Of a DNA stretch of 64,000 bases, positions 14,642 to 50,927 are shown in pieces (position 1 is the first letter of the stretch; the number at the start of each line of letters is the position of its first letter). The DNA is from Pseudidiomarina planktonica (GTDB lineage: Bacteria; Pseudomonadota; Gammaproteobacteria; Enterobacterales; Alteromonadaceae), in NCBI RefSeq assembly GCF_900177775.1, contig NZ_FXWH01000003.1:124001-188000 (forward strand). Reading direction: 5' to 3'. The notes under the pieces were generated by a model. The model did not search any database. It saw only the letters and a program-made list of their open reading frames with translations, and was not told the DNA's origin. Made by a program: the position numbers and the translations under genes.

Positions 14642-16489
14642 GTGTTGAATAAATACCCGTTGTGGAAAAACCTGATGGTGGTTCTTGTTATAGCGGTGGC
14701 AGCGCTTTATGCGTTGCCTAACCTCTATGGTGAAGACGCTGCCGTGCAGGTTTCCGCAAGTCGCAACGCGACAGTAACCACGGCCACGGTTGACCGCGTA
14801 CGTGACGCTTTAGACCAAGCTGAGATTGAACCTAAAAGTGTTGCCATGATTGATGATCAGATACTGATTCGTTTCAGTTCTGACAACGATCAATTGCGCG
14901 GCCGTGATTTAATTCTTAGCGAGCTTGGCACCGACTATACGGTTGCCTTAAATCTGGCTCCGGCTACGCCGGACTGGTTAAACGGTCTTGGCGCCACGCC
15001 AATGAAGCTGGGGCTTGATTTGCGCGGTGGTGTGCACTTCCTGATGGAAGTGGATATGCAGGAAGCGATCCGCAAAATTCAAAACCAGTTAGTAGACTCT
15101 ATTCGCGGTGATTTGCGGGAAGAGCGTATTCGTTACACCCAGGTTGAACGTGACGGCAATAACGTAGTGGTAACACTGCGCACGCAAGATGATTTTGAGC
15201 GTGCTGACAGTTTTATGAACAATCGCTACGAAGGTTATACCGACTCAACTGACAGTGATTCGCGCACTATTACGCTGCGAATGACCGATCAGAAGCTGAC
15301 CGAAACCGAAAGCTATGCGATTTCGCAAAACGTCACTATTTTGCGTAACCGGGTAAATGAACTCGGTGTTGCTGAGCCGCTGGTTCAACGTCAGGGTGCT
15401 GACCGCATTGTGGTGCAGTTACCGGGCGTACAGGACACCGCGCAGGCGAAGGAAATTCTGGGTGCTACGGCAACCCTGGAGTTCCGTTTGGTTGATACGG
15501 AAAACGATATTCGTGATGCTGAAGCTGGCCGGGTACCCTTTGGCAGTGAGCTGTTCCCGCGTCGGGAAGGCGGCAACATTCTGCTTAGCCAAAGTGTGAT
15601 TCTAACCGGTGACCATATTGTGAATGCCAGCTCAGGTTTTGATGAGAATGGCATGGCACAGGTGAACATTTCGTTAGATGGTGCCGGTGGTGACAAGATG
15701 TCGCTGGCAAGTCGCGATGCCGTTGGCAAGCAAATGGCAACTGTATTTATTGAATACAAAGCTACAGGTAAGCGTGACGAAGAAGGCAAAATTATCTTTG
15801 AACGCAACGCTGAAGTTATTAGTGCCGCTACTATTACGACTCGGTTAGGGCAAAACTTCCGCATTACTGGCGTAGGCTCACAGCAAGAAGCGCAAAATTT
15901 GTCAGTGCTGTTGCGCGCTGGTGCCTTGATTGCACCAATTCAGATTGTGGAAGAGCGTACTGTTGGCCCAAGTTTGGGTCAGGAAAACATTGATAAAGGT
16001 ATTCAGGCCATTATGTGGGGCTTCGTGTTGGTATTGGCCTTCATGGTGTTCTATTACAAGAAATTCGGACTTGTTGCTAATACAGCGCTGGCTACGAACC
16101 TGATTCTGATTATTGGCGTAATGTCGATGATTCCGGGGGCAACCCTAACGCTGCCAGGTATGGCGGGTATTGTATTAACTGTTGGTATGGCGGTTGATGC
16201 GAACGTGCTGATATTTGAGCGCATACGCGAAGAAATTAAAGCAAAACGTAGTCCGCAGCAGGCTATTCATCATGGTTACGATAGCGCGCTATCAACCATT
16301 GCCGATGCCAACGTCACTACCTTAATTGCCGCTATTATTCTGTTCTCAGTAGGTACCGGTCCGGTTAAAGGTTTCGCAGTAACACTGGCGATAGGTATTA
16401 TCACTTCAATGTTTACGGCTATTATCGGAACCCGTGCCATTGTCAACTCAGTCTGGGGTGGAAAACGCCTTAGCAAGCTGTCGATTTAG
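14642..16489 (+). CDS. secD: Protein translocase subunit SecD
   Basis: A 615-residue inner-membrane protein that works with SecF and YajC to use the proton or sodium gradient to pull exported proteins through SecYEG. One N-terminal membrane helix precedes a large periplasmic P1 domain ([11 protein letters not shown] signature at about residues 123-135). Six membrane helices fill the C-terminal third, with the conserved [17 protein letters not shown] motif. It begins with GTG, preceded by AAGGA 7 bases upstream. It lies 18 bases after yajC and 8 bases before secF, a clear operon. Confidence 0.97.
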
Positions 16490-33667: not shown

Positions 33668-33790
33668 AACGCGCCTTTAACAATTTTATGAGAAACTTAG
33701 TTAATCTAATGCTTGTAGTGGCCTGCTGCAAGCATGAGCGATACTTTTGTTATATAACCAAGACTCAGTATTAGTGAACAGGAACGCAAG

Positions 33791-35593: not shown

Positions 35594-37324
35594 TCACAGA
35601 AAAGTGACAGGGATAAAGAACTCATATTGCAAACCTTTACCCGGTTCGCTAGTGGCGGAAATACGGCCTTTAAGACTTTGCGTAATTAAATTCCAGACAA
35701 TGTGGGTGCCTAAACCGCTACCGCCTAAATGACGTTTGGTAGTGAAGAAGGGGTCAAATAACTTCTCCATTTGTTCTTCGGTTAGGCCTTTACCGTTGTC
35801 ACTGTAACGGAAGTGCAGGTTGTTACCCTGGCGCTCGGCATGAATTTCAATTTGGCCGCCGGAAATATTCTCAAAACCGTGAATAAGCGAGTTCATAATC
35901 AGATTGGTGAATATTTGCGATAAAGCACCGGCCGGGCAACGAATATTCATGGTCGACGGGCAGTCCAGCTCAATCTTGTGGTCGGTTTTTTTCAGCTTCG
36001 GATGCAAAGACTGAATCACCTCAGTGAGGTATTCCCGCAAGTTAATTTCGCGGGTAGCCTCTGAAGTTTGATCCACGGCCACCTGCTTAAAGCTGCCAAT
36101 CAGCTCGGAGGCCCGCTTCAGATTGTTGTCTAATAACGTCAGGCTTTCATTACTTTCGGCAATAAACTGCTGCAACTGGCTTTGTGTCAGGTTCTTCTTC
36201 TCCAGCGATTGTTCCAGCTGATTTAAGCGCTCTTGCAAGAAAGAGGTTGCGGTAACGCCAATGCCAATAGGGGTGTTCACGTCGTGCGTAATACCTGCCA
36301 CTAACCCGCCCAGCGAGGCTAGTTTTTCCGACTCAATAAGTTGGTCTTGCGCTTGTTGCAGAGTATCTAGTGATTGCTCAAGACGGCTATTGGTTTTCAA
36401 CAGATTAGTTTCAATGGTGCGGCGCTGGCTAATTTCTTTCGACAATTTGTCCTGGCGCATTTCCAGCTCGTTCTTACGTTGTTCTAAGTCCAGCATGGCC
36501 TGGCTTAAGCTGGATGTTTTGCGCGCTACTTCCTGCTCTAAAATAGCGTTTTGTTCATCCAACTTGCGGTTGGCTTTTACTAATTGTTGCTGCGTTTTAT
36601 CTAAGTCTTCCTGATACTCTTCCAGGTTATCCAATAGCTGATTGTATGCCTGCTCCACCATGACGAATTCTTCATTGCGTTGGTCGGTCAGGTGTAAGCG
36701 TGAATGTTCCAAATCGTCCAGCCGGAAATTACGGATTTGATCAGTTAAATCAAGTAACGGACGGTTTAGCATGCGGCTGAATGCGAGCGTGAATAACAGC
36801 AGCAGGAAGGTACTTTTTATAATGGCGTTACCAATAATAAAGTACAGGCTGACTTTAATGCGATCGATGGCAATATCGCGGGTGGTGAACAGGGTAACGT
36901 CACCAACCTGAGTAGAATGTCCGGAAAATTCAAAGACCAGCGATGAGAAGTAGCCAAAAATACCATTCTTTTCTGGTAATACTGTGCCTTCACTAGCTTC
37001 ATCGGGCAGCATGGATAAGTCGGCACCTTCGCCAAGCTGGATTAATACTTCGCCTGCATCGGAGCGAATGACTACCCCGGAAATAGCCGGAATACCAATC
37101 AAACCTTCGGCAATGGCTTCAATCTGGCCGGTGTTGAATTCCCACAGCGAACGAGTCAGTGAACCGTTAAAGGTTAACTGCTGGTTTTGTAGTTCTTCTA
37201 CTAACACCCGTTTGGTGTCGAAGTACTCGCCCACTATCTGTACGCAGGTTACGATAAACGTCAGGATAAAATAAACTGACAGAACACTGGTAAGCAGGGA
37301 ACGAGAAATACTCGACGTTGCCAT
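35594..37324 (-). CDS. Membrane sensor histidine kinase, orphan
   Basis: A 576-residue sensor with an N-terminal membrane helix (about residues 8-30), a periplasmic sensing domain (about 35-160), a second membrane helix (about 165-190), and a HAMP-like segment. A long coiled coil (about 240-340) leads to the phospho-acceptor His347 in THDVNTPIG. The ATPase domain has LIMNSLIHGF, DNGKGL, FDPFFTTK and GGSGLGTHIV. The DVNTP variant is common in kinases with long coiled coils. No response regulator is encoded beside it, so its partner must be elsewhere. It is divergent from arsR. Confidence 0.88.
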   Translation of the reverse strand: MATSSISRSLLTSVLSVYFILTFIVTCVQIVGEYFDTKRVLVEELQNQQLTFNGSLTRSLWEFNTGQIEAIAEGLIGIPAISGVVIRSDAGEVLIQLGEGADLSMLPDEASEGTVLPEKNGIFGYFSSLVFEFSGHSTQVGDVTLFTTRDIAIDRIKVSLYFIIGNAIIKSTFLLLLFTLAFSRMLNRPLLDLTDQIRNFRLDDLEHSRLHLTDQRNEEFVMVEQAYNQLLDNLEEYQEDLDKTQQQLVKANRKLDEQNAILEQEVARKTSSLSQAMLDLEQRKNELEMRQDKLSKEISQRRTIETNLLKTNSRLEQSLDTLQQAQDQLIESEKLASLGGLVAGITHDVNTPIGIGVTATSFLQERLNQLEQSLEKKNLTQSQLQQFIAESNESLTLLDNNLKRASELIGSFKQVAVDQTSEATREINLREYLTEVIQSLHPKLKKTDHKIELDCPSTMNIRCPAGALSQIFTNLIMNSLIHGFENISGGQIEIHAERQGNNLHFRYSDNGKGLTEEQMEKLFDPFFTTKRHLGGSGLGTHIVWNLITQSLKGRISATSEPGKGLQYEFFIPVTFL

Positions 37325-37475: not shown

Positions 37476-37817
37476 ATGACAGCTACTCAATTTTTCAAAT
37501 GCCTGACCGACACCACCAGACTTAAGTGTCTGCTGTTGATTATGCAGGAAGAAGAGCTCTGTGTATGCGAGCTCATTGCCGCTATTGGTGAGAGCCAGCC
37601 AAAAATATCGCGGCACCTGGCGCAACTTAGAAAGTGCCAATTGCTGACCGATCGCCGCCAGGGTCAGTGGGTGTTTTATCAACTGAATGCCAAGCTACCC
37701 CAATGGCAGCACGATATTTTGCTGCAAACTTTAAGTGCCAACAGAACTGAACTGAATAGCTCACTCCATTCACTGAATGCAATGACCGGGCGACCTGAAC
37801 GAATCGTCTGTTGTTAA
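37476..37817 (+). CDS. arsR: ArsR-family arsenic-responsive repressor
   Basis: This 113-residue winged-helix protein has the metal-binding helix motif ELCVCEL with two cysteines, followed by the recognition helix QPKISRHLAQLRK, and ends in a Cys-Cys pair. It should repress its own operon and release DNA when arsenite binds. It precedes a GAPDH gene and arsJ, so its inducer is very likely arsenical. A GGAG site is present but 14 bases from the ATG. Confidence 0.9.
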   Translation: MTATQFFKCLTDTTRLKCLLLIMQEEELCVCELIAAIGESQPKISRHLAQLRKCQLLTDRRQGQWVFYQLNAKLPQWQHDILLQTLSANRTELNSSLHSLNAMTGRPERIVCC

Positions 37818-37862
37818 AGGTTCTATACTGAACCTATAAAGAACTCAAAAGAGGTAAGCGCA

Positions 37863-38876
37863 ATGACTATTAAAGTAGGTGTGAACGGTTTTGGCCGTAT
37901 GGGGCGGCTGACATTCCGCATTCTGGCCGCGCACAGCGAAGTAGAATTAGTGCAGGTGAATGACCCGGCCGGGAAACCGGAAACCCTGGCGCACTTGTTG
38001 AATTTTGATTCGGTGCATGGCCGCTGGCAGCAACAGGCCGAAGCTAATGAAACCGGCTTTCGCGTAAATGGTCAGCAAGTTGAAGTGACGCAGAATAAAA
38101 CCATTGATGAAACTGACTGGTCTGGCTGCGACATTGTGATTGAAGCGTCCGGCAAAATGAAAACTCAGGAATTGCTGAAAAAGTACCTGCAGCAAGGCGT
38201 TAAAAAAGTAGTAGTTACTGCGCCAGTAAAAGAAGAAGGTGTGCTGGAGTGTGTGCTGGGGGTAAATGACCATCTTTATAGTGGCGACAAATACGACATT
38301 ATTACAGCGGCTTCCTGCACCACCAATTGTTTGGCTCCGGTGGTAAAAGTGATTCATGAAAAGCTGGGTATTAAGCACGGCTCTATGACCACTATTCACT
38401 CTATTACCAATACCCAGACTATTCTGGATGCGCCGCACAAAGACTTACGCCGAGCGCGTGCCTGCGGGGAAAGCTTAATTCCAACCAGCACTGGTTCGGC
38501 AACGGCTATTACGCATATATTTCCGGACTTAAAGGGCAAGCTGAATGGCCATGCGGTGCGGGTGCCACTGGCTAATGCCTCGCTTACCGACGTGGTGTTT
38601 GAAGTTGCCCGCGAAACCACCGTGGAAGAGGTGAATGGTTTCCTCAAAGAAGCATCAGAAAACGAACTACAGGGTATTATGGGTTACGAGACCCGTCCGT
38701 TAGTGTCTATTGATTACAAAACTGACCCACGTTCGAGCATTATTGATGCACTGTCCACTATGGTGGTGAATGGCACTCAGGTGAAAATTTATGCCTGGTA
38801 TGACAACGAATGGGGTTACGCCAACCGTACCGCCGAGCTGGTTATTAAAGTAGGTACCGGACTCAATGCTGGCTAA
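37863..38876 (+). CDS. ArsJ-associated glyceraldehyde-3-phosphate dehydrogenase
   Basis: A 337-residue GAPDH with the NAD-binding start [12 protein letters not shown] and catalytic Cys152 in [10 protein letters not shown]. Gaps in the usual sequence and its position between arsR and arsJ mark it as the arsenic-operon paralogue. Known chemistry: with arsenate instead of phosphate it forms unstable 1-arseno-3-phosphoglycerate, which ArsJ exports, together giving arsenate resistance. An AGAGGT site precedes the ATG. The end overlaps the arsJ start by 11 bases. Confidence 0.93.
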
Positions 38877-40092
38877 GCTTTCGGCTGAAATTCGCCAGTA
38901 TTTAATTGTTACCGGCAATTACTGGGCTTTTACTCTTACTGACGGTGCGCTGCGCATGCTGGTGGTTTTGCACTTCCACCAGTTGGGTTATAGCCCGCTG
39001 CAAATTGCCATGCTGTTTTTGTTCTACGAGTTTTTTGGCGTAGTCACGAATCTGGTGGGTGGTTGGCTGGGCGCCCGGGTGGGCTTGAATCGCACCATGA
39101 ATATTGGCCTGGCGTTGCAAGTGGTGGCGCTGAGTATGTTGTTGGTGCCCTCGACCATGCTTAGCGTTATTTGGGTGATGGCCGCCCAGGCATTGTCTGG
39201 TATTGCCAAAGATCTCAATAAAATGAGCGCGAAAAGCGCCATTAAGTTATTGGTAGCCGACGACGCTCAGGCAACTTTATACAAATGGGTCGCGTTCTTA
39301 ACCGGCTCGAAAAACACGCTAAAAGGCGTTGGTTTCTTTGTTGGTGGTGCGCTGTTGGCCTGGTTAGGGTTTCAGGGCGCAGTGCTGGCTATGGCGGTTG
39401 CGCTTGCCGCGGTGTGGATAATCAGTCTGATATTCCTGAAAGCGGATTTGGGTAAGGCCAAAGGCAAACCTAAGTTCCGGGATATTTTTTCCAAAAGCTC
39501 AGCTGTGAATTGGCTGTCGGGTGCTCGCATGTTCTTATTCGGCGCACGCGATGTTTGGTTTGTGGTGGCAATTCCGGTGTATTTTTCCAGTCAGTTGGGC
39601 TGGAATCCAATTGGGGTAAGTACCTTCATGGCCGTCTGGGTCATTGGCTATGGGGTGGTGCAAACCATAGCGCCGAAACTAACCGGCGCCAGCAGTGGAC
39701 AAGTACCTGATGGCCGCAGCGCGTTTGGCTGGGCCTTGCCGTTACTTAGCGTGACCTTATTAATGGCGCTTGGCCTGTGGCTGCAGTGGCCGGCTGAGCA
39801 AGTGCTGGTTATTGGATTACTGATATTTGGCGCACTATTTGCGGTAAACTCCTCGCTGCACAGCTATTTAATCGTCAGCTACGCTGGCCGCGACGGGGTA
39901 TCCTTAGATGTGGGCTTTTATTACATGGCCAATGCCATGGGCAGGCTTATAGGTACCATACTCTCGGGTTGGGTTTATCAAGCCTATGGATTGCTACCTT
40001 GTTTGTTGGTTGCAGCCGTATTTATTTCATTGGCGGCCTTATTTGCCCTCGCTTTGCCGGTAACCGCGCGCGCACCAGAACCTGACGTTTGA
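38866..40092 (+). CDS. arsJ: Organoarsenical efflux transporter ArsJ (MFS)
   Basis: A 408-residue major facilitator protein with about 12 membrane segments. The N-terminal [20 protein letters not shown] segment and the central [12 protein letters not shown] region are typical of ArsJ. It exports 1-arseno-3-phosphoglycerate made by the preceding GAPDH, whose gene it overlaps by 11 bases. No terminator follows; the phosphate-type operator array of the next unit begins right at the stop codon, and the two loci touch. Confidence 0.92.
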
Positions 40093-40192
40093 CTGTAGCG
40101 ACCTAAACACAAGGCATTCACGATAACGTCACAAAGCATTCACCAAGCCGTCACTTTCATGTAACGGCCTTGTCACAAAAACTCCGTAGATT
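40093..40192 (+). promoter_or_regulatory. Extended PhoB-box array and promoter
   Basis: Seven-base units recur every 11 bp, each separated by 4 bases. Six are clear: CATTCAC 40115, ACGTCAC 40126, CATTCAC 40137, CCGTCAC 40148, ATGTAAC 40159 and TTGTCAC 40170. Two degenerate ones precede them (CTGTAGC 40093, TAAACAC 40104). The unit and spacing match the Pho box (CTGTCAT-N4-CTGTMAY). A -10-like TAGATT at 40187-40192 starts 10 bases after the last unit, the geometry of PhoB-activated promoters that lack a -35. Confidence 0.78.
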
Positions 40193-40240
40193 GCACATCG
40201 TCTTAATTTACAAATTGACGCAATTCCAACGGAGATAACA

Positions 40241-41731
40241 ATGAAAGCGAATAAACTTTTTGCATTAAGCGCGCTGACTGCTTCCCTGATGCTGGCTGGT
40301 TGTGGTGGTGACATCAACCTAACCCCAACTTCTGTCGATAACTCAACTGACAACTCAGTTACTAACCCAGGTGGCGGCGGTAGCACTGACAATAACTGTG
40401 CAAGTTATACCGATGATGGCGTTACAGTTCGTGGCTCTGTTGAAGGCGACAACTGTGTATACAGCTCAAACTTCTCAACTCCAAACAACCCAATCCGTAC
40501 TGACATCCGCATCGTTGATTTGCCAAACGATGGCGCGCACATTTTCCCGAACGGTTTGTACATTGGTGACGGTTTGGAAAACGATCCGGCCAACATTCCT
40601 GCCAACGGTCCAACTCTGACTATTGATGCTGGCGCTACTTTAGCGTTCCAGGATGCTGACGGCTTTGTGCAAATCGCACGTGGTTCAAAAATTATTGCTG
40701 AAGGTGAAGCAAATGCACCAATTACCTTCACTGCTGACGAAGACTTAACTGGCGACGTAAACAAAGACACTGACCGTGGTTTATGGGGCGGTGTGATTTT
40801 GCTTGGTCGTGGTATTTCAAACAAATGTGATCAGGCTGACTTAGAGAACTGTAGCCTGGAAGCTGAAGGCGGCGCTGGCTTGTACGGCGGCAGTGACAAC
40901 AGCGATGACTCTGGCGTATTAAGCCACGTAGTTGTTAAGTACGCAGGTTTCGAAGTTGCCGTTGGTAACGAATTAAACGGTATTACTTTCTACGCAATCG
41001 GCGATGCGACTCAGGTTGACCACATTCAGGTTCACAACAACGTGGATGACGGCATCGAGTTCTTTGGCGGCGCAGTTAATTTTAAACACGCAGTACTAAC
41101 AGGTAACGGCGATGATTCACTGGATTGGGCTGACGGTTGGTCAGGCGCAGGTCAGTACATCTACGTTCGTCACAACGAATCTTTAGCAAACCGTGGTATT
41201 GAAGGTGACAACAACTCAGGTAACTTCCTGGCTGAGCCTTTCACTTCTCCGCAAATCGCTAACATGACTATTGTTGGTTCTAACTACAGCACCACTGACC
41301 GTGATTCTGAAGGCGTATTGTTACGTCGCGGTACTCAGGCGGAACTGTATAACTTCGTTATTACTGGTCCTGAATTAATGGGCGAGTGTCTAGAGTTAGA
41401 CGACGCAGAAACTTCTGATCACATTGCTGATGGCAACATGGTTATCGAAAGCTCTGTAGTGGCTTGTGCTGAAAACTTTGCAGACCAAACTGCGCAAGAT
41501 TGGTTTGAAGGCGGCGCGAACAACGTTGCACTGACTGACGCGGCCACTGTGTTGGAGAATGGCTTGTACACTGCATCACCAATTCTTGATGCAGCTGGTG
41601 CTGAAGTTGCAGTCACTGCAAAAGCTGACTTAAGCACAGTAAACCCGTTCTTTGATGATGTAGATTTCGTCGGTGCCATATCTGCAGACGACGACTGGAC
41701 AGCTGGCTGGGCGTTTGATTTGAACAACTAA
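40241..41731 (+). CDS. Outer-surface type lipoprotein with parallel beta-helix-like repeats
   Basis: A 496-residue lipoprotein with lipobox LMLAGC (residues about 16-21), then a disordered Gly/Ser/Asn/Thr linker, then a repetitive Asp- and Asn-rich domain with regularly spaced short strands that looks like a right-handed parallel beta-helix (TLTIDAGATLAF, SKIIAEGEANAPITFTA, NNVDDGIEFFGGAVN). Relatives are often labelled only as hypothetical or wrongly as other enzymes. It precedes a TonB-dependent receptor gene, with a terminator between, and is driven by a PhoB-like array, so it may capture or process a phosphorus ligand for that receptor. Function is inference. Confidence 0.82.
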   Translation: MKANKLFALSALTASLMLAGCGGDINLTPTSVDNSTDNSVTNPGGGGSTDNNCASYTDDGVTVRGSVEGDNCVYSSNFSTPNNPIRTDIRIVDLPNDGAHIFPNGLYIGDGLENDPANIPANGPTLTIDAGATLAFQDADGFVQIARGSKIIAEGEANAPITFTADEDLTGDVNKDTDRGLWGGVILLGRGISNKCDQADLENCSLEAEGGAGLYGGSDNSDDSGVLSHVVVKYAGFEVAVGNELNGITFYAIGDATQVDHIQVHNNVDDGIEFFGGAVNFKHAVLTGNGDDSLDWADGWSGAGQYIYVRHNESLANRGIEGDNNSGNFLAEPFTSPQIANMTIVGSNYSTTDRDSEGVLLRRGTQAELYNFVITGPELMGECLELDDAETSDHIADGNMVIESSVVACAENFADQTAQDWFEGGANNVALTDAATVLENGLYTASPILDAAGAEVAVTAKADLSTVNPFFDDVDFVGAISADDDWTAGWAFDLNN

Positions 41732-41755
41732 GAATCAAGAGCGAGTCGCACAGGG

Positions 41756-41800
41756 ACGTGCAAAAAGGCGCTCATTAGCGCCTTTTTATCAGTTGCACGT
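41756..41800 (+). terminator. Intergenic terminator between lipoprotein and receptor genes
   Basis: A perfect 11-bp stem, 41762-41772 with 41777-41787, with loop CATT and a T-run on the descending arm. Outer arms ACGTGCA (41756) and TGCACGT (41794) can extend it. It should stop most transcripts after the lipoprotein gene, with read-through into the receptor. Confidence 0.85.
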
Positions 41801-41849
41801 AGCAAGTTAACACGTGCCCGGCTTTGTCCTCATCTATGGAGCATTCCAC

Positions 41850-44462
41850 ATGAACAGAACGCCTTTTATGAGCAAGAGTAAATTGGGATTGGCCATTGCG
41901 CTGGCACTCTCCAGCCAACTGGCGTTGGCTCAAGAGCAAGCCGCCGATGAGTCAATTGAAGAAGTAGTAACCACGGCAACCCGGTTGCAAGGTTCTGCCG
42001 CCGCAGTAGTTGAAGAACGTAAAGCCCAGGCTTTCGTTGCTGATATTCTGGGTTCAGAGCAGATTTCTCGTACCGGTGACAGCGACGCTGCTTCAGCCTT
42101 ACGACGGGTTACCGGCTTAACCCTGGTTGACGGTAAGTTTATTTATATTCGCGGTTTGGGTGAGCGTTATTCAAGCACCCAGTTGAATGGTGCCCAGGTG
42201 CCTTCACCGGATCCTACCCGTAACGTCATTCCACTGGACATGTTCCCGTCCAGCATCATTGAAAGCTTATCCGTACAAAAGTCTTATTCAGCCGACATGC
42301 CGGCTCACTTCGGCGGTGGTAACGTTGATATTCGTACTACCTCTATTCCTGCTGAAGAAGTATTCAATATTCAGCTAGGTACTGGCTGGAATACTGAAAA
42401 TTCGTCTGACGGCCTGACTTACGACGGTGGTAATGACTGGACTGGCAGCGATGACGTTCGTGCATTGCCGCAGAACTTTTTAGACGCGCTGGCAACTTAT
42501 GGTTCAGTGAACTTCAATGACATCGCAGATTACGAAGGAATTAGCCAGGATGAAGCTCGGTTAGTTAACCGCGACCTGATGAATTCCTTAAACACCGATT
42601 ACGATGTTTATTCCGACAGCATTGCGCCGGAAGTGAAGGCCTCGGTAAGTTATGGTGACCGTTATGAGTTTGGTAGTGACTGGGCCGTTGGCTTTTTAGC
42701 TGGCGTTGATTACGACCGCAGTACTGACAACTCTGACGAGCAGCGTCGGGTACTAGGTTTCGCCGGCGACAGTTTGGTGAACCAGTTCCAGAGCGAATCA
42801 CAAATTACCACGCATTCGGTTGAGCTAAGCGGTATGTTCAGCTTAGGTCTTGAGTACGGTAATAACCATAAGTTGGAAACCACCACCTTATTCTTGCGCG
42901 ACACACAGGATCGTATCGAGCAGGGTATTACTGAATCAATCGATACCATTGGCGAACAGGACTTAGCTTTCTTCGATACCGATATTCGTTACGAAGAACG
43001 TGAATTGTTCTCGAACCAAATTAGCGGTTCACACATGTTCCCTGAGTACATGAATATTGCCGTGGATTGGCAATATACTGAATCTACCGCACGCCGTGAT
43101 GCGCCAGGCAACGTATTTACTCGCCAGGGCGCTGATGCTGATTTGGGTGAGCAAGCAGAAAACCTGAACTACCAGCGTTCACGTAACGCCGCCATTTTAG
43201 AATTCCAGAATCTGGAAGATGAAGTACAAAGCTACGGCGCTGATGTAGAGCTTCCGCTTTATTTCGGTGGTGATGAGCTGGTGTTAACCGGTGGTGGCGA
43301 AGTGATGAAAAAAGGTCGTCAGTCTTATGGCCGTCGATTTGGTTTCAGCACCGAAGGTACTCCTTTCGATCAGTTAACTAACGTTGAGTTCAGCGATTTG
43401 TTTGGTCCGGACAGTGTGAATAACCCGGACAACAACCTGCAGGTTTTTGGTGCACCAACACTGACCGATCCAAACTATCTGGCCGCCCAGCAAATTGAAG
43501 CGGGTTACGGTATGTTTGACTACTCTACCGACAAGTGGCGTTTAAATGCCGGTGCGCGGTGGGAGCAGTACAGTCAGGTATCAGCGCAAATTGATTTGGC
43601 TGAAAGTACTATTATCGGTGATATTGCCAATACCTCGCGCACGGAAGACGACTGGTTTAACTCGCTGGCATTTACGTACTTCCTGAACGATGACATGCAG
43701 TTACGTTTTGGTTACGGCAGCACCACGGTGCGTCCGGACTTGCGTGAAATTACTGAAGTTATCTTCATCGATCCGTTAACCAGCGACAAAGTTCGTGGTA
43801 ACCCGAACCTGGCAAGTTCTGACGTGCAAAATTTTGACGTGCGTTGGGAATGGTATATGCCATCAGGCGATAACTTATCAGTGGCTGCATTCTATAAGGA
43901 TTTAGATAAGCCAATTGAGTCAGTGGAAGCGAAAGCCACGGATTCGGATCGGGTTATTACCTTCTTAAACGGTGATGCTGGTGAAGTTTATGGTGTGGAA
44001 TTTGAGTTCTTAAAAGACTTGAGCTTCGTTACCAGCGGCTTATTCACAACGGGTAACCTGACCCTGTCGGATTCTGAGATTACCATTTCAAATACCGGTA
44101 GTGTGGAGTTAACCAATAACAAGCGCCGTATGACAGGTCACTCTGAGTATGTGGTTAACTTGCAGTTAGGCTATGACTCGGTAAACGGTGAACACAGTGG
44201 CTCGTTGGTTTACAACGTGTTTGGTGAGCGTATCGCCTTCGCTGGTTCAGTGTTTGGTGGCCAGGGTATTGATGATGCTTACGAGCAGCCGTTCCACAGC
44301 TTGGATGCAGTGTACACCTGGTACCCTGACTTCAACTCTAACGTGAAACTTAAGCTGCAGAACTTACTGGGCGAAGACATTGAGATCGAGCAAAACGGTC
44401 AAACCATTCAATCGCAAACAGTAGGTACCAACATTACTTTGGAATACAGCTACTCCTTCTAA
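41850..44462 (+). CDS. TonB-dependent receptor of the Pho-linked island
   Basis: An 870-residue outer-membrane receptor. I use the ATG at 41850 (GGAG 8 bases upstream) rather than an upstream frame start at 41814. A signal peptide ends near LALAQ; the TonB box region is SIEEVVTTATR; the plug has IRGLGERYSSTQLNGAQVP and MPAHFGGGNVDI; the barrel ends with aromatic Phe. It should import a ligand at the expense of TonB energy. Its genes for lipoprotein partner (upstream) and TtpC/TonB module (downstream) are in the same island, and both are preceded by PhoB-like boxes, which suggests a phosphorus-containing ligand rather than iron. Iron use cannot be excluded from sequence alone. Confidence 0.9.
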   Translation: MNRTPFMSKSKLGLAIALALSSQLALAQEQAADESIEEVVTTATRLQGSAAAVVEERKAQAFVADILGSEQISRTGDSDAASALRRVTGLTLVDGKFIYIRGLGERYSSTQLNGAQVPSPDPTRNVIPLDMFPSSIIESLSVQKSYSADMPAHFGGGNVDIRTTSIPAEEVFNIQLGTGWNTENSSDGLTYDGGNDWTGSDDVRALPQNFLDALATYGSVNFNDIADYEGISQDEARLVNRDLMNSLNTDYDVYSDSIAPEVKASVSYGDRYEFGSDWAVGFLAGVDYDRSTDNSDEQRRVLGFAGDSLVNQFQSESQITTHSVELSGMFSLGLEYGNNHKLETTTLFLRDTQDRIEQGITESIDTIGEQDLAFFDTDIRYEERELFSNQISGSHMFPEYMNIAVDWQYTESTARRDAPGNVFTRQGADADLGEQAENLNYQRSRNAAILEFQNLEDEVQSYGADVELPLYFGGDELVLTGGGEVMKKGRQSYGRRFGFSTEGTPFDQLTNVEFSDLFGPDSVNNPDNNLQVFGAPTLTDPNYLAAQQIEAGYGMFDYSTDKWRLNAGARWEQYSQVSAQIDLAESTIIGDIANTSRTEDDWFNSLAFTYFLNDDMQLRFGYGSTTVRPDLREITEVIFIDPLTSDKVRGNPNLASSDVQNFDVRWEWYMPSGDNLSVAAFYKDLDKPIESVEAKATDSDRVITFLNGDAGEVYGVEFEFLKDLSFVTSGLFTTGNLTLSDSEITISNTGSVELTNNKRRMTGHSEYVVNLQLGYDSVNGEHSGSLVYNVFGERIAFAGSVFGGQGIDDAYEQPFHSLDAVYTWYPDFNSNVKLKLQNLLGEDIEIEQNGQTIQSQTVGTNITLEYSYSF

Positions 44463-44490
44463 GGTTTAGTTATTCTGGGTAAACCCTTAC

Positions 44491-44516
44491 AACGGGAGCT
44501 TCGGCTCCCGTTTTTA
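44491..44516 (+). terminator. Intrinsic terminator after the receptor gene
   Basis: A perfect 9-bp stem (44491-44499 with 44504-44512) closed by the very stable C-TTCG-G tetraloop and followed by a T-run. It ends the receptor transcript 29 bases past the stop codon. Confidence 0.93.
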
Positions 44517-44520
44517 TTGC

Positions 44521-44588
44521 GTGCAACAAAAATGACATCTTTACGTCACTAAGCTGTCATGAAAATTCACTAAAGTGCCCCCTATAAA
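44521..44588 (+). promoter_or_regulatory. PhoB-box array upstream of the TonB module
   Basis: Units at 11-bp spacing: GTGCAAC 44521, ATGACAT 44532, ACGTCAC 44543 and CTGTCAT 44554 (an exact Pho half-site), with a final ATTCAC one base out of register at 44565. A -10-like TATAAA at 44583-44588 lies 11 bases after it. The array starts right after the receptor terminator. Confidence 0.75.
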
Positions 44589-44640
44589 TTCTTCGCCGCA
44601 ATTTTTCCGCAATATTGTTGCAACAAATAGGGTATTTCAT

Positions 44641-45432
44641 ATGAAGCTCTTTTTTCTTGGTAGTGCAATTTTGTTGGCAGCCAGCTTTGGTTTGCCGGCA
44701 CAGGCACAAAGTGAATCACTTGAACCTGTGGTTGATGTTGCTGATGCCATTAACCAGACCGCAAAAAAATCCCAGCTAACTATTGATAGCATTGCTGACA
44801 ACATGCAGGAGCGCATGCAGCAATACAAACAAATCAATAAGCAAATTGACGGCTTACGGGTTTATACCCGCCAGTTAGAAAAACAAATTCAGAACCAAAA
44901 CACTGAAAAATCTGAGCTCAGCAGCTCTATTGATGAAGTGAGTGTGGTTGAACGCCAAATCACCCCATTAATGCTGCGCATGATTGATGGTTTAGATGCC
45001 TTTGTTGAACTGGACGTGCCGTTTCTACCAGAAGAGCGGGAAGAGCGCGTTGCAACCTTGCAAGACTTGATGGACCGGGCTGATGTCGATGTGTCTGAGA
45101 AATTCCGTCGGGTAATGGAAGCCTACCAAATTGAAGCTGAGTACGGCCGCACAATTGAAGCTTATACCGGTGAAATGGATGTTGAAGGGCAAGTACAGGA
45201 CGTTGACTTCCTGCGTATTGGCCGGGTTGCCCTGGTTTACAAAACCCGTGATGGTGCCAGTTTAGGGGTGTGGAATCAGAACGCCGGAGCCTGGCAGCCG
45301 CTGAGCGACAGCTACCGCAACAGCGTGACTGAAGCGCTGCGTATTGCTCGTAAGCAACTGGCTCCAGACTTACTTATGTTACCGCTGTTTACCGACAGCA
45401 TAGTTTCAGCTACTCGTGCTGCAGGAGAATAA
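44641..45432 (+). CDS. DUF3450 periplasmic coiled-coil protein
   Basis: A 263-residue exported protein. The start is the ATG at 44641 with AGGG upstream; a longer frame to 44575 lacks support. A signal peptide ends at QAQ, then an alpha-helical region with heptads (residues about 40-105) and a conserved C-terminal block (RVALVYKTRDGASLGVWN) mark DUF3450. In Vibrio TonB2 clusters the equivalent gene also precedes ttpC. It is the first gene of the six-gene energy operon, four bases before ttpC. Its role is unknown, but co-occurrence suggests it contacts TtpC in the periplasm. Confidence 0.88.
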   Translation: MKLFFLGSAILLAASFGLPAQAQSESLEPVVDVADAINQTAKKSQLTIDSIADNMQERMQQYKQINKQIDGLRVYTRQLEKQIQNQNTEKSELSSSIDEVSVVERQITPLMLRMIDGLDAFVELDVPFLPEEREERVATLQDLMDRADVDVSEKFRRVMEAYQIEAEYGRTIEAYTGEMDVEGQVQDVDFLRIGRVALVYKTRDGASLGVWNQNAGAWQPLSDSYRNSVTEALRIARKQLAPDLLMLPLFTDSIVSATRAAGE

Positions 45433-45435
45433 GCA

Positions 45436-46794
45436 ATGAAATTTCTGACTATTTTAGTTGCCGCGAGTGTTGCCATAGCAACCAGTTTTACCAGCGCAGC
45501 ACAAGAGCCGGTGAACCTGGACGAATTGCTGAATCAATTGCAACAAGGGCAGTTTGCACAAAGCCAGCAAAACCAAGAGCGTGAAGCTGAGTTTGCGGCG
45601 CGCTCGCAAGAACAGGAACGCATTTTGCGTGAGGCCATTGCTGAGCGTGAACGTTTGGAAGCCTTGAGCGACCGCCTGGAAACTCAGTTTGAACAAAATG
45701 AAATGGAGTTAACTGGGTTAACTGACGCACTAACGCAACGCATGGGCTCGCTACGCGAACTCTTCGGTGTGTTGCAGCAGGTTGCTGGTGACACCTCAGG
45801 TAATTTGCAGAATTCACTGACTTCCGCACAGTTTCCGGGTCGCAGTGAGCAATTAGACGCGCTGGCGCAGAAAATGGGCTCAACTTCGAAGTTAGCTTCG
45901 ATTGAAGAAATTGAGCAAGTTTGGTTTACCTTGCAGCAAGAAATGACTGAAACCGGCAAGCTGGCTCGCTTTGAAACTGAAGTAACTCAGGCCAGCGGTG
46001 AAAAGCAAACTCAGGAAGTTGTGCGAGTAGGTGCTTTTAACCTGGTTTCAAATGGTAAATATCTGGAATTGATTCCCGGTACCGACAACGTTGCTGAATT
46101 GGTTCGCCAACCGGCAGGTCGTTACATGGATACTGCTGAAGAACTGCAAACCAGCAGTGATCAGGTAGTGGCTTTCGGACTGGATCCAACTGGTGGTTCT
46201 ATTCTGGGGCTGTTGGTTCAGGCACCTGGCTTAATGGAGCGTATTCATCAGGGCGGCACTGTTGGTTACATTATTCTAGCGTTAGGCGCGGTGGGCTTAT
46301 TGCTGGCATTAGAGCGCTTTGTCTCACTGACCTTAGTTGGCAACAAAGTTTCGCGTCAGTTGAAAAAGTCTGAGCCGAGCACGGATAACCCGCTGGGTCG
46401 GGTAATGACGGTTCGCGATAAGTTTCCACAAGCCGACACTGAAACCCTTGAGCTGAAACTTAGCGAAGCGATTTTACAGGAAATACCTAAGCTGACCCGC
46501 AACCTGACCTTTATCAAGATCATTTCAGTAGTGGCACCGCTGATGGGTCTGTTAGGTACGGTAACCGGTATGATTAACACCTTCCAGGCGATAACCCTGT
46601 TTGGTACTGGTGACCCGAAATTAATGGCCGGCGGTATTTCGCAAGCCTTGGTAACCACGGTGCTGGGTCTGGTTGTTGCTATTCCAATGACACTGCTGTT
46701 CGCCACCCTAAACACGCGTAGCAAGAATGTGGTGCACGTGCTGCAGGAACAAGCCTCTGGCGTAATCGCAGAGCGCTCTGAGCGGGGTCAGTAA
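45436..46794 (+). CDS. ttpC: TtpC-like MotA/TolQ/ExbB-family protein with periplasmic domain
   Basis: A 452-residue protein with a signal peptide (TSAAQ), a long periplasmic coiled-coil domain (about residues 25-260) and a C-terminal ExbB-like core with three membrane segments and the motif VAPLMGLLGTVTGMI. This is the arrangement of TtpC, the extra protein required by the Vibrio TonB2 system. It should link the inner-membrane motor to TonB-dependent transport across a larger periplasm. It lies between the DUF3450 gene and a short exbB. Confidence 0.9.
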   Translation: MKFLTILVAASVAIATSFTSAAQEPVNLDELLNQLQQGQFAQSQQNQEREAEFAARSQEQERILREAIAERERLEALSDRLETQFEQNEMELTGLTDALTQRMGSLRELFGVLQQVAGDTSGNLQNSLTSAQFPGRSEQLDALAQKMGSTSKLASIEEIEQVWFTLQQEMTETGKLARFETEVTQASGEKQTQEVVRVGAFNLVSNGKYLELIPGTDNVAELVRQPAGRYMDTAEELQTSSDQVVAFGLDPTGGSILGLLVQAPGLMERIHQGGTVGYIILALGAVGLLLALERFVSLTLVGNKVSRQLKKSEPSTDNPLGRVMTVRDKFPQADTETLELKLSEAILQEIPKLTRNLTFIKIISVVAPLMGLLGTVTGMINTFQAITLFGTGDPKLMAGGISQALVTTVLGLVVAIPMTLLFATLNTRSKNVVHVLQEQASGVIAERSERGQ

Positions 46795-46796
46795 CC

Positions 46797-47324
46797 GTGT
46801 TATTTGTAGCTGAGTTTCTAAACGCAATACAGGATTTTATCGAGACCGGCGGCCAGGTACTGGTGGTTATAGGTATCTTAATTTTCGTGATGTGGTTGAT
46901 GATACTCGAGCGTATTTTTTACTACCTCAAAGGCCACCGCCAGCAAATGAAACAAGCGGTGCGGGACTGGAATTCGCGCAGCGATAAAAGCTCCTGGAAC
47001 GCAGAGCAAATTCGTCAGGCCATGATTTCCCGGGTGTCTTTGGGGTTAGGTGGCAATATCCCGATTATTCAGGCGTTAGTGGCGTTATGTCCACTACTGG
47101 GCTTGATGGGAACTGTGACCGGTATGATCGAAGTATTCGATGTAATGGCAGTGGCTGGAACAGGTAACGCGCGGTCTATGGCCGCCGGTGTTTCGAAAGC
47201 TACTATCCCAACCATGGCAGGCATGGTCGGTGCACTCTCGGGAGTGTTCGCGGCAACCTGGCTACAGCGCACGGCACGCCGTGAGCGGCGCAAGCTGAAA
47301 GACCACTTGTTGCTGGAACACTAA
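46797..47324 (+). CDS. exbB: ExbB-like proton channel subunit
   Basis: A 175-residue inner-membrane protein with three helices and the core motif CPLLGLMGTVTGMIEVF. It starts with GTG two bases after the ttpC stop. It lacks the long N-terminal extension of some ExbB proteins, as is usual for ExbB2. With ExbD it forms the motor that energises TonB. Confidence 0.93.
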   Translation: MLFVAEFLNAIQDFIETGGQVLVVIGILIFVMWLMILERIFYYLKGHRQQMKQAVRDWNSRSDKSSWNAEQIRQAMISRVSLGLGGNIPIIQALVALCPLLGLMGTVTGMIEVFDVMAVAGTGNARSMAAGVSKATIPTMAGMVGALSGVFAATWLQRTARRERRKLKDHLLLEH

Positions 47325-47352
47325 CCGCTTACCGATTGGAGTTGGAACTGAT

Positions 47353-47760
47353 ATGAAACAACATTTTGCCAATTTAATGGACGAAGAAGAAAGTCAGATA
47401 GACATGACCCCGATGCTGGATGTGGTCTTTATCATGCTGATTTTCTTCATTGTTACTGCTAGCTTCGTGAAGGAAGCGGGTATTGATGTGAACCGTCCGG
47501 ACGCAGCTACTGCCGTGCAAAAAGACCGCGCAAACATTCTGGTGGCTATTAGTGCAACGGGTGAAATCTGGATTAATAAACGCCAGGTAGACGCTCGCGC
47601 AGTACAAGCCAATATTGAACGTTTGTATGCCGAGAATCCGCAAGGTTCGGTGGTTATTCAGGCTGACAAGTTAGCCACAACTGAAACCCTGATCAAGGTT
47701 ATGGACGCGGCCCGTTCGGCTGGTGTCTTTGATGTTTCAATTGCCGCACAAGAAGAGTGA
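47353..47760 (+). CDS. exbD: ExbD-like motor subunit
   Basis: A 135-residue protein with a single membrane helix preceded by the ion-binding DMTPMLDVVFIMLIFF motif (Asp near residue 25) and a periplasmic C-terminal domain. It completes the ExbB/ExbD proton-driven motor for the adjacent TonB. The stop lies two bases before the preferred tonB ATG. Confidence 0.94.
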   Translation: MKQHFANLMDEEESQIDMTPMLDVVFIMLIFFIVTASFVKEAGIDVNRPDAATAVQKDRANILVAISATGEIWINKRQVDARAVQANIERLYAENPQGSVVIQADKLATTETLIKVMDAARSAGVFDVSIAAQEE

Positions 47761-47762
47761 TT

Positions 47763-48371
47763 ATGTTGAGGTTACTGGGTGCTCTGATAACAGCTGTGGT
47801 AGTAACGCTCGGATTATTTTATCTGATGCAGTCACTTATCAGCGGTGGTGAAGGCGCGATGAGCGAACCGGCGCGCGGTAGCGTGCTGGACTTCGTTCGG
47901 GTAAAGCAAGACGAATCGGTGCAGGAAAAAGAACGTAAGCCGGAGCGTCCGCCGGAGCCGGAACAACCACCGCCTGAAGCTCCACAGCAGCAAATGGATA
48001 CTTCCGAAGTGGTTGATAGTGACGGCGGTTATGATTTTTCAGCCAATGTGCAAAGTGACTCCGGACTTAGCGGTGGTATGGCGCTGGACGCCAGCGATGG
48101 TGAGTACTTACCCATAGTGAAAGTTCAGGCAAGCTATCCGCGACGCGCACTACAGCGCGGCATTGAAGGTTATGTGGTGGTGCAGTTTACCGTTACCCGG
48201 CAAGGAACAGTGAGAGATCCGCGGGTAGTGGAAGCAGAGCCAGCGAATATTTTTGATCAGGCGGCCATGGATGCAGTGCTGAAGTTTAAGTACAAACCGC
48301 GAGTTATTGATGGCGACGCTGTAGAAGTGGAAGGCGTGCAAAATCGAATCACTTTTGAAATAGACGGGTAA
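47763..48371 (+). CDS. tonB: TonB energy-transducing protein (TonB2 type)
   Basis: A 202-residue protein with an N-terminal membrane helix, a Pro/Glu-rich periplasmic spacer (EKERKPERPPEPEQPPPEA, about residues 55-75), and a C-terminal TonB domain (YPRRALQRGIEGYVVVQFTV and FKYKPR). Short spacer and tight genetic link to TtpC mark it as TonB2-like. A GTG at 47757 is an alternative start. It contacts the TonB box of receptors such as the one encoded upstream. Confidence 0.93.
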   Translation: MLRLLGALITAVVVTLGLFYLMQSLISGGEGAMSEPARGSVLDFVRVKQDESVQEKERKPERPPEPEQPPPEAPQQQMDTSEVVDSDGGYDFSANVQSDSGLSGGMALDASDGEYLPIVKVQASYPRRALQRGIEGYVVVQFTVTRQGTVRDPRVVEAEPANIFDQAAMDAVLKFKYKPRVIDGDAVEVEGVQNRITFEIDG

Positions 48372-48377
48372 CACATT

Positions 48378-49643
48378 ATGTTGCGAACCAATTTACTAGT
48401 AGCTATGACCGCGGCAGCAATACTAGCCGCATCTTTTGGCAGTGTTGAAGCGCAGGAACGCAAGCGAACGCCGGCGTTGCGGGCGCAGGTATATGACCAA
48501 CTGTCGATGGCGCAAGAACTGGCCGACGGCGGTGATGTGCCGGCTGGCTTGCGGGCATTGGCTGAGGTTGAGCGTAAAGCCGACAGCATGAATAGCTATG
48601 AACGCGCCATGATGTGGAACTTCTACGGCTATATGTATTACGAGCAGGACGACGTAAATAACGCGATAAAATATTTCGCGAAAGTAGTTGATGAAAGCCC
48701 GATTCCCGAGTCGCTGGAATTAAATACCCTGTTTAGCTTGGCGCAACTGGCGTTGACTCAGGAACGCTATGCCGAAGTTCTGAACTATCTGGACCGGTGG
48801 CAACAAGCCAGCCCGGACGCAGACGCTTCAAAAGCGCAGGTGTTAAAAGCACAAGCGTTATACCAGCAGGGTGAGTATCAAGCAGCGTTAGAACCTATTA
48901 CTGCGGCTATTAATGCACGTGAAGCCAAAGGCGGTTATGCCGACGAAAATTGGTATATTTTGGTTCGTGCTATTCAGTTTGAACTGGGTAATACAAGGGC
49001 TGTAGCCACGGTGTTGGAAACCATGATCCGGGCCTTCAATAAGCCTGAATATTGGTTACAGCTGGCGGGTGTATACGCAGACCTGGGTGAAGACAAGAAG
49101 CAACTGGCTATGCTGGAAGCGGCTTACCAGCAAGGCTTTTTAACCGAAGGTAAAGACTTAATGAATCTGGCACAGGCGTACTTTTTTAATGAAGTGCCTT
49201 TCAAAGCCGGGCAAGTGATTGAGAAAGGGTTAGCCGATGGCAACATTGAAGCCAATTTGCGCAACCTGAAAATGCTCTCGCAAAGCTGGATTGCGGCGCG
49301 CGAAACGGACAAAGCCGTTGTAGCTCTGGCCAAAGCTGCTGAACTCAGTGATGACGGTCAGTTACATGCACAACGGGCGCAAGTGTTACTGAATGCAGAA
49401 CGCAATGAAGAGGCCATTGAAGCGGCTGAAGCAGCGTTGCAGCGCGGTGGGCTAGATGCGCCTGGCACTATGCATTTGGTTATTGGCATGGCGGAACTGA
49501 ATTTATTGAATTACAACGATGCCCTGAGCGCATTCGCAGAAGCAAAGAAATTTGATGATGTGCGTAAAATGGCAGTGCAGTGGGAACGCTTTGCTTCCAA
49601 TGAAAAACAGCAAGCTGAATTATTGGAAGAATTAAATTCCTAG
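48378..49643 (+). CDS. TPR-repeat periplasmic protein of the TonB module
   Basis: A 421-residue exported protein (signal peptide ending near VEAQ) made of tetratricopeptide-like helical repeats (YGYMYYEQDDVNNAIKYF, AQALYQQGEYQAALEPI, and others). It lies six bases after tonB. The Vibrio TonB2 locus also ends with a TPR protein gene in this position. It probably scaffolds protein contacts in the periplasm. Its exact partner is unknown. Confidence 0.88.
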   Translation: MLRTNLLVAMTAAAILAASFGSVEAQERKRTPALRAQVYDQLSMAQELADGGDVPAGLRALAEVERKADSMNSYERAMMWNFYGYMYYEQDDVNNAIKYFAKVVDESPIPESLELNTLFSLAQLALTQERYAEVLNYLDRWQQASPDADASKAQVLKAQALYQQGEYQAALEPITAAINAREAKGGYADENWYILVRAIQFELGNTRAVATVLETMIRAFNKPEYWLQLAGVYADLGEDKKQLAMLEAAYQQGFLTEGKDLMNLAQAYFFNEVPFKAGQVIEKGLADGNIEANLRNLKMLSQSWIAARETDKAVVALAKAAELSDDGQLHAQRAQVLLNAERNEEAIEAAEAALQRGGLDAPGTMHLVIGMAELNLLNYNDALSAFAEAKKFDDVRKMAVQWERFASNEKQQAELLEELNS

Positions 49644-49737
49644 TTGCAGAGTTAACTATCAGAGCATGAGCTAACTTATTGATTGTCATAAATAAGAATT
49701 AAAAATGACACATAAAGGAAATATTAAATTCAAGAAA

Positions 49738-49790
49738 GTGCAAATAAAATGACATAAAGTCATAAAACTGTCACATAAGTAACATATTAT
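49738..49790 (+). promoter_or_regulatory. Pho-box and promoter upstream of the porin gene
   Basis: AAGTCAT at 49757 and CTGTCAC at 49768 are 11 bp apart with AAAA between, close to the Pho-box consensus. A -10-like TATTAT at 49785-49790 begins 10 bases after the second unit. Just upstream GTGCAA...ATGACAT at 49738-49755 repeats, with 16 of 18 bases the same, a block in the TonB-module promoter (44521-44538). Confidence 0.72.
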
Positions 49791-49858
49791 AGCGCCTGAA
49801 TTTTATGTGTGTGCTACACATATCTGTGTTTCACTAAAAAACTGTAGGCGCTTTAATT

Positions 49859-50821
49859 ATGAAAAACACCTCATTGATCTCAATTTGCCTTGCCTCCGCA
49901 CTGGCTGCACCTGTTGCCTCGGCAAACGACGATGCCGTTGACGTTTACGGTAAAATTAACGTGTCTTTGCAACACAATGACAATGGCAGCACCTCAGAAA
50001 CTGAGCTGGAAAGTAATAACTCCCGGTTTGGTCTGAAAGGTAAAGTCAGCCTGGACCACGGTCTGGAAGCTTTCTATTTGTTGGAATGGCAGGTTGACGT
50101 TGCTGATATCGGCGGCTCAGATAACATCAAATCGCGTAACCAATACGTTGGTATTCGTGGTGGCTTTGGTGAAATCATGGCTGGCCGTCGTGACACCGTA
50201 CTGAAAAGCTCACAAGGTAAAATCGACGTATTCAGCGACTACGAAGGTGATATTAAAGCCTTGTTTGAAGGCGAAAACCGTACCAGCGACACTCTGACTT
50301 ACTTCACGCCTAAATTCGGTCAGTTCCGTGGTGGCGTATCTTATATTTTAAGTGAAGATGAAGCTGTTGATGATGGTGTATCACTGTCTTTAACCTACGG
50401 TGATGCTGGCTTAAAGAGCTCTGATTTTTATCTGGCTGCCGCAGTAGACTCAGAAGTAGATGGCTATGATGTGGTGCGTTTTTCGGGTTCCACCAAATTG
50501 AACACCACTACGCTGGGCTTTATGTATCAAGTACAGGAAGCAGTTGAAAATGCGCCTGATGCCGATGGTTTTGTGGTTAGCCTGGCACACCCAGTAAACA
50601 AGTTTACTTTTAAAGCACAAGTACAAACATTAGATTTTATTGGTACCGATAGCGTTTCTTTTGCTGGTGGCGTGGACTATAAATTAGGCGCTCAAACCAA
50701 AGCTTTTGCCTGGTATACCGGCCGCTCGCTAGAAACTATTGTGTTGGATCAACAGTTTAACTCGACCATCAGTGATGTAGACCAGAACTACTTCGCCGTT
50801 GGTATTGAACACAACTTCTAA
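49859..50821 (+). CDS. Outer-membrane porin (Gram-negative porin, PhoE/OprP-like role)
   Basis: A 320-residue beta-barrel porin with signal peptide (PVASA), an N-terminal YGKINVSLQHND strand, the loop-3 region and a terminal Phe. It is the general 16-strand trimeric porin class. A Pho-box-like promoter lies directly upstream, suggesting induction by phosphate starvation as for PhoE or OprP. Lysines in loop 3 would favour anions, but cannot be judged here with confidence. It ends just before a strong terminator. Confidence 0.88.
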   Translation: MKNTSLISICLASALAAPVASANDDAVDVYGKINVSLQHNDNGSTSETELESNNSRFGLKGKVSLDHGLEAFYLLEWQVDVADIGGSDNIKSRNQYVGIRGGFGEIMAGRRDTVLKSSQGKIDVFSDYEGDIKALFEGENRTSDTLTYFTPKFGQFRGGVSYILSEDEAVDDGVSLSLTYGDAGLKSSDFYLAAAVDSEVDGYDVVRFSGSTKLNTTTLGFMYQVQEAVENAPDADGFVVSLAHPVNKFTFKAQVQTLDFIGTDSVSFAGGVDYKLGAQTKAFAWYTGRSLETIVLDQQFNSTISDVDQNYFAVGIEHNF

Positions 50822-50896
50822 CTGCTGACGTAAGTTATTAAATAACTGCTGAAATAACCCGAAGCGCTGGTTCCTGCCGGTGCCGCACGGTAAACT

Positions 50897-50927
50897 GCCC
50901 ATAATCATATGATTGTGGGCTTTTTTT
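50897..50927 (+). terminator. Intrinsic terminator of the porin gene
   Basis: A 10-bp stem (50897-50906 with 50911-50920, one T-G wobble) with loop ATAT is followed by seven Ts (50921-50927). The T-run ends at the base before the next gene's ATG. Confidence 0.88.

Follow-up and report, generated by a model that had tools for sequence, protein, structure and literature searches.

A candidate PhoB-controlled outer-membrane phosphorus-acquisition island with its own TonB energizer in Pseudidiomarina planktonica

Do bacteria of the surface ocean, in parts of which phosphorus limits growth, spend energy on carrying it across the outer membrane, where phosphate entry is usually ascribed to porins? 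The question is raised by a locus of Pseudidiomarina planktonica, which lies in a 64,000-nucleotide stretch of contig NZ_FXWH01000003.1 (C3:124001-188000, hereafter the window), part of a genome assembled into five contigs totalling 2.57 Mb. An earlier note on this DNA had described three consecutive transcription units, namely a lipoprotein-receptor pair, a six-gene TonB module and a porin, and had proposed that they import a phosphorus compound under phosphate control. Sequence comparison leads us to consider it probable (roughly 0.78) that these genes form, as a whole, a PhoB-controlled outer-membrane phosphorus-acquisition island, whichever phosphorus compound is taken up.

All the island genes are consecutive on the + strand, and gene calls and Pfam agree with the three units as first described. 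The first encodes a predicted outer-membrane lipoprotein with a right-handed beta-helix (40241..41731, lipobox LAGC), a relative of the ElpS/CC0170 kind, and a TonB-dependent receptor related to the CC0171 kind (41850..44462, Pfam Plug and barrel matches above cut-offs). The second comprises ttpB (44641..45432; DUF3450, PF11932, 302 bits), ttpC (45436..46794; a long MotA/TolQ/ExbB protein, PF01618), exbB (46797..47324; PF01618), exbD (47353..47760; PF02472), tonB (47757..48371; PF03544) and ttpD (48378..49643), a protein of the TPR families. The name TtpB, and ttpD as last gene of the module, follow excerpts of PMC6957404; all the papers below are likewise cited from excerpts of their text. 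The third unit is an outer-membrane porin of the Porin_4 family (49859..50821; PF13609). TonB_C matches number two in the whole genome, the island tonB being one.

Upstream of each unit, sequence reading together with a half-site matrix or an 18-bp matrix located PhoB-box-like repeats, all on the + strand: an array of six 11-bp-phased repeats 5' of the lipoprotein gene (40115..40176), an array 5' of ttpB (44532..44571) and a box 5' of the porin gene (49757..49774). In a PhoB box the last repeat is expected about 10 nt 5' of the -10 element. The gaps found here are 10, 11 and 10 nt, to the -10-like elements TAGATT (40187-40192), TATAAA (44583-44588) and TATTAT (49785-49790), each chosen by eye, so that the spacing claimed by the earlier note holds at all three units.

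The PhoB matrix scan that the note had suggested gave a divided answer. The 18-bp matrix was built from phoB and pstS promoters of 16 Pseudidiomarina genomes, which supplied 32 sites (22 unique) selected with a TGTCA(C/T) repeat rule. With it, the porin site reached 23.8 bits, the top score of the window on both strands (training median 23.4), but unit 2 reached only 13.5 and unit 1 only 10.2. These two were outscored by positions 15221 (17.9), 50207 (14.1) and 31085 (13.8), a further match of 13.5 lay at 33694, and a random window is expected to hold 1.2 matches at 13 bits or more and 8.3 at 10 or more. With the half-site matrix and two repeats, units 1 and 2 once more did not exceed chance (expected counts 1.9 and 0.85), the top match of the window (34861) lying outside all three promoters. 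Longer arrays were compared with 60 first-order Markov sequences using the half-site matrix. Nothing in these sequences matched the unit 1 array at four to six repeats; the expectation for unit 2 was 0.033 with three repeats and 0.017 with four, and that for unit 3 was 0.033 with three repeats, its four- to six-repeat scores being at chance. The three best three-repeat arrays of the window are exactly the three island promoters. Single sites therefore single out the porin promoter; for units 1 and 2 it takes the 11-bp phasing of the arrays, or conservation, to set them apart.

This conservation was followed through the genus, in which the closest named relative in the scan was Pseudidiomarina salinarum (lipoprotein 86% identical). 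A PhoB box of at least 10 bits precedes 21 of 23 lipoprotein genes and, in the PhoB-type module, ttpB in 21 of 23 cases; all 21 porin promoters found carry one of at least 16 bits (lowest 16.3). The misses (L045, L048, L088 and L089) score 6.9 to 9.2, although in L045, L048 and L089 the repeats are visible by eye. None of eight housekeeping-type ttpB promoters, of which the genus supplied five and the order three, has a box of 10 bits (best 8.3). Promoters of other genes at the genus loci score at most 9.2 (receptor) and 2.9 (AEC), with three of 22 TPR rows at 11.0. Receptor, TonB module and porin are contiguous in the source genome and ten others; in twelve genus genomes the receptor pair lies apart from the module, which is present (TtpB 62-72% identical), and the boxes persist there as well. 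A phoB-phoR-pstS cluster adjoins the window, just outside it, with phoB at C3:191667 (about 3.7 kb beyond the window end; TIGR02154, 362.5 bits against a cut-off of 296.2) and pstS at C3:193856 (about 5.9 kb beyond). The matrix derived from other promoters, the conservation in the genus, the lack of boxes at the paralogous module and the synteny with phoB-phoR-pstS together make it very likely that PhoB governs the island.

The PhoB-type module also appears to travel with the receptor. The receptor is present in 23 of 24 genus genomes, every one of which also carries the PhoB-type module (23/23), and the receptor-less genome (G004) has the housekeeping module only. In a tree of 82 TtpB proteins, a split with 100/99 support separates 18 housekeeping rows, none of which reaches an 11-bit box (highest score about 10), from 64 rows of a PhoB-type clade, of which 56 have one; the box label takes six changes on this tree, not one. 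Since this tree is rooted at its midpoint, contains some very long branches and drew many of its rows from the vicinity of a lipoprotein gene, it indicates that the lineage is separate and not how old it is. The island energizer is accordingly read as a paralog of the general TonB module of the cell, and as a lineage of its own.

Outside the genus, the lipoprotein profile matched 32 of 197 genomes of the order, spread over 17 of 80 genera, and, in an overlapping sample, 30 of 299 genomes of the phylum. Among 79 named loci examined, from the best 80 of 418 matches, every one also contains a receptor match (77 with a stricter open reading frame filter). Within the fetched flank, on contigs some of which end before 10 kb is reached, phoB was found in 36 of the 79 and a ttp/TonB module in 42. 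The lipoprotein promoter scores at least 11 bits in 68 of the 78 loci scored, compared with 52 of 597 promoters of other genes at these loci, some of which are possibly Pho genes themselves. In many Alteromonas the genes phoB, phoR, pstS, in some cases a 2-oxoglutarate/Fe(II) (2OG-Fe(II)) oxygenase gene, lipoprotein, receptor, ttpB, ttpC, exbB, exbD, tonB and ttpD form one cluster, and on the A. macleodii plasmid pBGP9 a single row runs from phoB and phoR through a phosphate binding protein gene and the oxygenase gene to lipoprotein, receptor and ttp module. The conservation that the earlier note had asked about is thus apparent both across Pseudidiomarina and in these Alteromonas clusters. 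An A. macleodii plasmid (L311, NZ_OX359244.1) bears its own phoB, phoR and phosphate binding protein genes together with the lipoprotein-receptor-TonB set, and so unites a regulator with the system that it would regulate. The receptor gene has a box-like site of its own in L264, L280 and L263 (16.2, 16.8 and 12.7 bits), unlike in Pseudidiomarina. The pair, otherwise mostly marine, occurs on one contig labelled as a Klebsiella pneumoniae metagenome-assembled genome (MAG; L262), which is probably mislabelled or mixed.

Several observations weigh against a PhoB-controlled island with a dedicated energizer. Ten of the 78 lipoprotein promoters stay below 11 bits, as do eight of the 64 module promoters of the PhoB-type clade (three from Pseudoalteromonas, two from Pleionea, two from genus members and one from a long-branch MAG). 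In another set of 21 loci, most of them from other families and classes, six yielded no lipoprotein by BLAST, and of the remaining 15, ten have a box and five have none above 10 bits. Two receptor-bearing relatives in the order, G028 and G038, have housekeeping-type modules only, from which it follows that a dedicated energizer is not required everywhere; the dedicated module claimed by the note is therefore borne out by co-inheritance in the genus but not as a general rule. Finally, CC0171 was described as constitutive in Caulobacter, on data not displayed (PMC2996285).

Read as phosphorus import, the island would work as follows. At low phosphate, phosphorylated PhoB would bind the 11-bp repeat arrays and activate the three promoters. 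The beta-helix lipoprotein, presumably anchored at the surface, may, to judge from its constant pairing and fold, capture a phosphorus-bearing ligand and hand it over to the receptor, which TtpB-TtpC-ExbB-ExbD-TonB-TtpD would open; co-inheritance in the genus and the tree are observed, and the energy transfer is what we infer from them. The cargo could then pass to PstS and PstSCAB, as synteny suggests, with the porin presumably contributing passive entry. Import of phosphorus by the island is likely, in view of the genomic context and of the published low-phosphate expression of related lipoprotein-receptor pairs, and the proposal of the earlier note gains support to that extent.

As for the ligand, phosphate, polyphosphate or a metal-phosphate complex seems at least as likely as organic phosphate. 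A survey of neighbour clusters at 66 loci outside the genus, in which clusters present in at least three loci were inspected by eye, found an ABC ATPase at 15 loci and a DUF3333 permease at 12, which we take to be PstB and PstA/C; also recurrent were Ppx (10), Ppk (9), PhoU (9), a PstS-like protein (6, by eye), DUF47 (4) and Pit (4). Readings of the clusters near the pair have Pfam support. RdgC (18 loci), a histidine kinase (16) and an M20 peptidase (12) recur without an evident phosphorus role. Neighbours of the Pst, PhoU, Pit and Ppk/Ppx kinds speak for phosphate or polyphosphate no less than for organic phosphorus, but because phoB neighbourhoods often hold genes of this sort their evidence is not independent. 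Among the clusters present in at least three of the 66 loci, judged by eye and with several clusters unidentified, neither alkaline-type phosphatases nor glycan-enzyme families appeared; of 51 flanking proteins that were scanned, one matches PF00884 (Sulfatase), whose fold also comprises phosphatases. The missing recurrence of alkaline-type phosphatases slightly favours phosphate or polyphosphate. The full proposal, that a distinct PhoB-run TonB energizer lineage powers the uptake of phosphate itself or polyphosphate by way of a lipoprotein of the ElpS type and its receptor, is less likely than not.

The alternative that survives best keeps the island and changes its ligand: the lipoprotein would be an enzyme, comparable to polygalacturonases or alginate epimerases, with a phosphorylated polymer to bind or trim, and the receptor would import the fragment, as has been proposed for the Pus loci of Flavobacterium. 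This is a real possibility, somewhat short of even odds. The lipoprotein has no Pfam match, and hence none to SusD models, so that the SusD-type partner of SusCD/PusCD systems is not what is found here; its predicted model is a beta-helix, whose fold matches include many carbohydrate-active beta-helices as well as tailspikes, with NosD tied for the top. Residues D269, D270, E273, D291, D292, D295, E321 and D323 are invariant in a 68-row lipoprotein alignment, the FI/FII lipoproteins of Flavobacterium have been compared to polygalacturonase (PMC8115612), and a PhoA-type phosphatase is encoded in the genome. However, a common beta-helix fold is no proof of function, the neighbours recognised by eye at three or more loci include the Pst-like, PhoU, Ppk, Ppx and Pit kinds and no alkaline-type phosphatases or glycan enzymes, and the 4.2-kb phoA locus has no box above 10 bits.

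A signalling role, with the receptor-lipoprotein pair detecting some compound outside the cell and adjusting how much phosphatase is released, is an idea already weighed for ElpS/CC0171 and is unlikely here. Overproduction of ElpS was accompanied by higher secreted alkaline phosphatase activity (PMC2996285), but loss of cc0171 left ElpS production running, on data not displayed in the same paper, and a whole dedicated energizer co-inherited in the genus fits powered transport better. Least probable is iron (Fur) control, which the earlier note had named as the alternative; the module would then be a TonB2 system, the receptor an ordinary one for siderophores or heme, and the Pho-like repeats incidental: Vibrio TonB2/TtpC modules are indeed Fur-regulated and carry iron (PMC6957404), and the receptor model, which aligns with known transporters over residues ~43-870, has mostly iron, copper and cobalamin transporters as fold neighbours (as may be expected for nearly any TonB-dependent receptor), but no Fur box above chance was found at the island promoters (best 9-12/19, the 95% level of random 180-mers being 12), PhoB boxes are kept at three promoters with none seen before the paralogous module, and the locus is syntenic with phoBR-pstS.

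Some genes around the island deserve mention. Directly 5' of the lipoprotein gene lie arsR, a glyceraldehyde-3-phosphate dehydrogenase gene and arsJ (37476-40092; arsJ call NF033734, 615 bits against a cut-off of 400), a trio also located about 6 kb 5' of the lipoprotein-receptor pair in Aliidiomarina maris (L263); as arsenate mimics phosphate, it may be functionally linked to the island. Next to it, on the - strand, is a histidine kinase gene (35594-37324) with a Pfam match to HATPase only; a search of 146 loci found homologs in 48, and relatives of this kinase adjoin phoB on the A. macleodii plasmid pBGP9 and in L224. The interval from receptor to ttpB (44463-44640) holds no MscS-type channel gene, and such a gene occupies this place in P. 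salinarum and six further named genus members. Among the 51 flanking proteins, ten are 2OG-Fe(II) oxygenases, whose gene lies between pstS and the lipoprotein gene in several Alteromonas loci (L267, 6140-6985, and relatives).

If the reading of the island as an energized phosphorus importer is true, common sea bacteria (Alteromonas, Pseudidiomarina and relatives) spend energy on phosphorus at the first membrane; were the cargo phosphate itself or polyphosphate, TonB would moreover drive the capture of an inorganic oxyanion usually assigned to porin entry. The island would also offer a compact genetic system for the puzzles of ElpS/CC0171 and of Flavobacterium FI/FII, with receptor, energizer and lipoprotein separately deletable. 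The lipoprotein-receptor pair and its phosphate link were known already from Caulobacter and Flavobacterium, and to this extent the union presented in the earlier note is not new; what we did not find in the literature is a dedicated TonB energizer of the TtpC type that stands under PhoB boxes and is inherited together with the pair in the genus.

Among published systems, the closest is that of Caulobacter crescentus, where the low-phosphate lipoprotein ElpS (CC0170) is encoded beside the TonB receptor CC0171 and type II secretion system (T2SS) genes (PMC2996285), and where PhoB governs several TonB receptors (PMC11208175). The island shares the lipoprotein-to-receptor order and the phosphate link; homology of both island proteins was drawn through the T2SS-linked pair of an Indioceanicola (L310; 39% over 393 amino acids, 30% full-length), not from the CC0170/CC0171 sequences. 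ElpS/CC0171 has T2SS genes directly 3', where the island has ttpB, with a TonB/TtpC energizer and a porin besides, and gspD lies on another contig (C5:612625); the island pair is thus a relative of the ElpS/CC0171 pair, not an ElpS-T2SS locus. In Flavobacterium johnsoniae, TonB-dependent transporters with the ElpS-like FI/FII lipoproteins are induced by phosphate depletion and the FII pair lies in a phoBR operon, much as in the island, but the phylum is another, a dedicated TonB module is not named in the excerpts, and the ligand is thought to be organic phosphorus (PMC8115612). For Pseudoalteromonas tunicata, the excerpts mention PhoR/PhoB and no such TonB system (PMC2536512). The uncharacterised exbB2-exbD2-tonB4 genes of Pseudomonas aeruginosa, in a PhoB/sigma-VreI locus, resemble the island in belonging to a low-phosphate regulon with a putative porin next to them; they differ in that the excerpts name no ttp genes and describe an extracytoplasmic function sigma factor route and an Hxc T2SS locus (PMC7035377). 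The Vibrio TonB2 and TonB3 systems have a six-gene order, ttpB-ttpC-exbB-exbD-tonB-ttpD, identical to that of the island; TonB3, likened by gene layout alone, begins with a receptor gene and, according to the excerpts, is not regulated by iron (PMC6957404). TonB2, in which TtpB and TtpD are present, imports siderophores under Fur control; with no Fur box above chance 5' of ttpB (best 9/19), the island module is not filed with such iron-type systems, and where Vibrio TonB2 has a Fur box, the island module has PhoB boxes.

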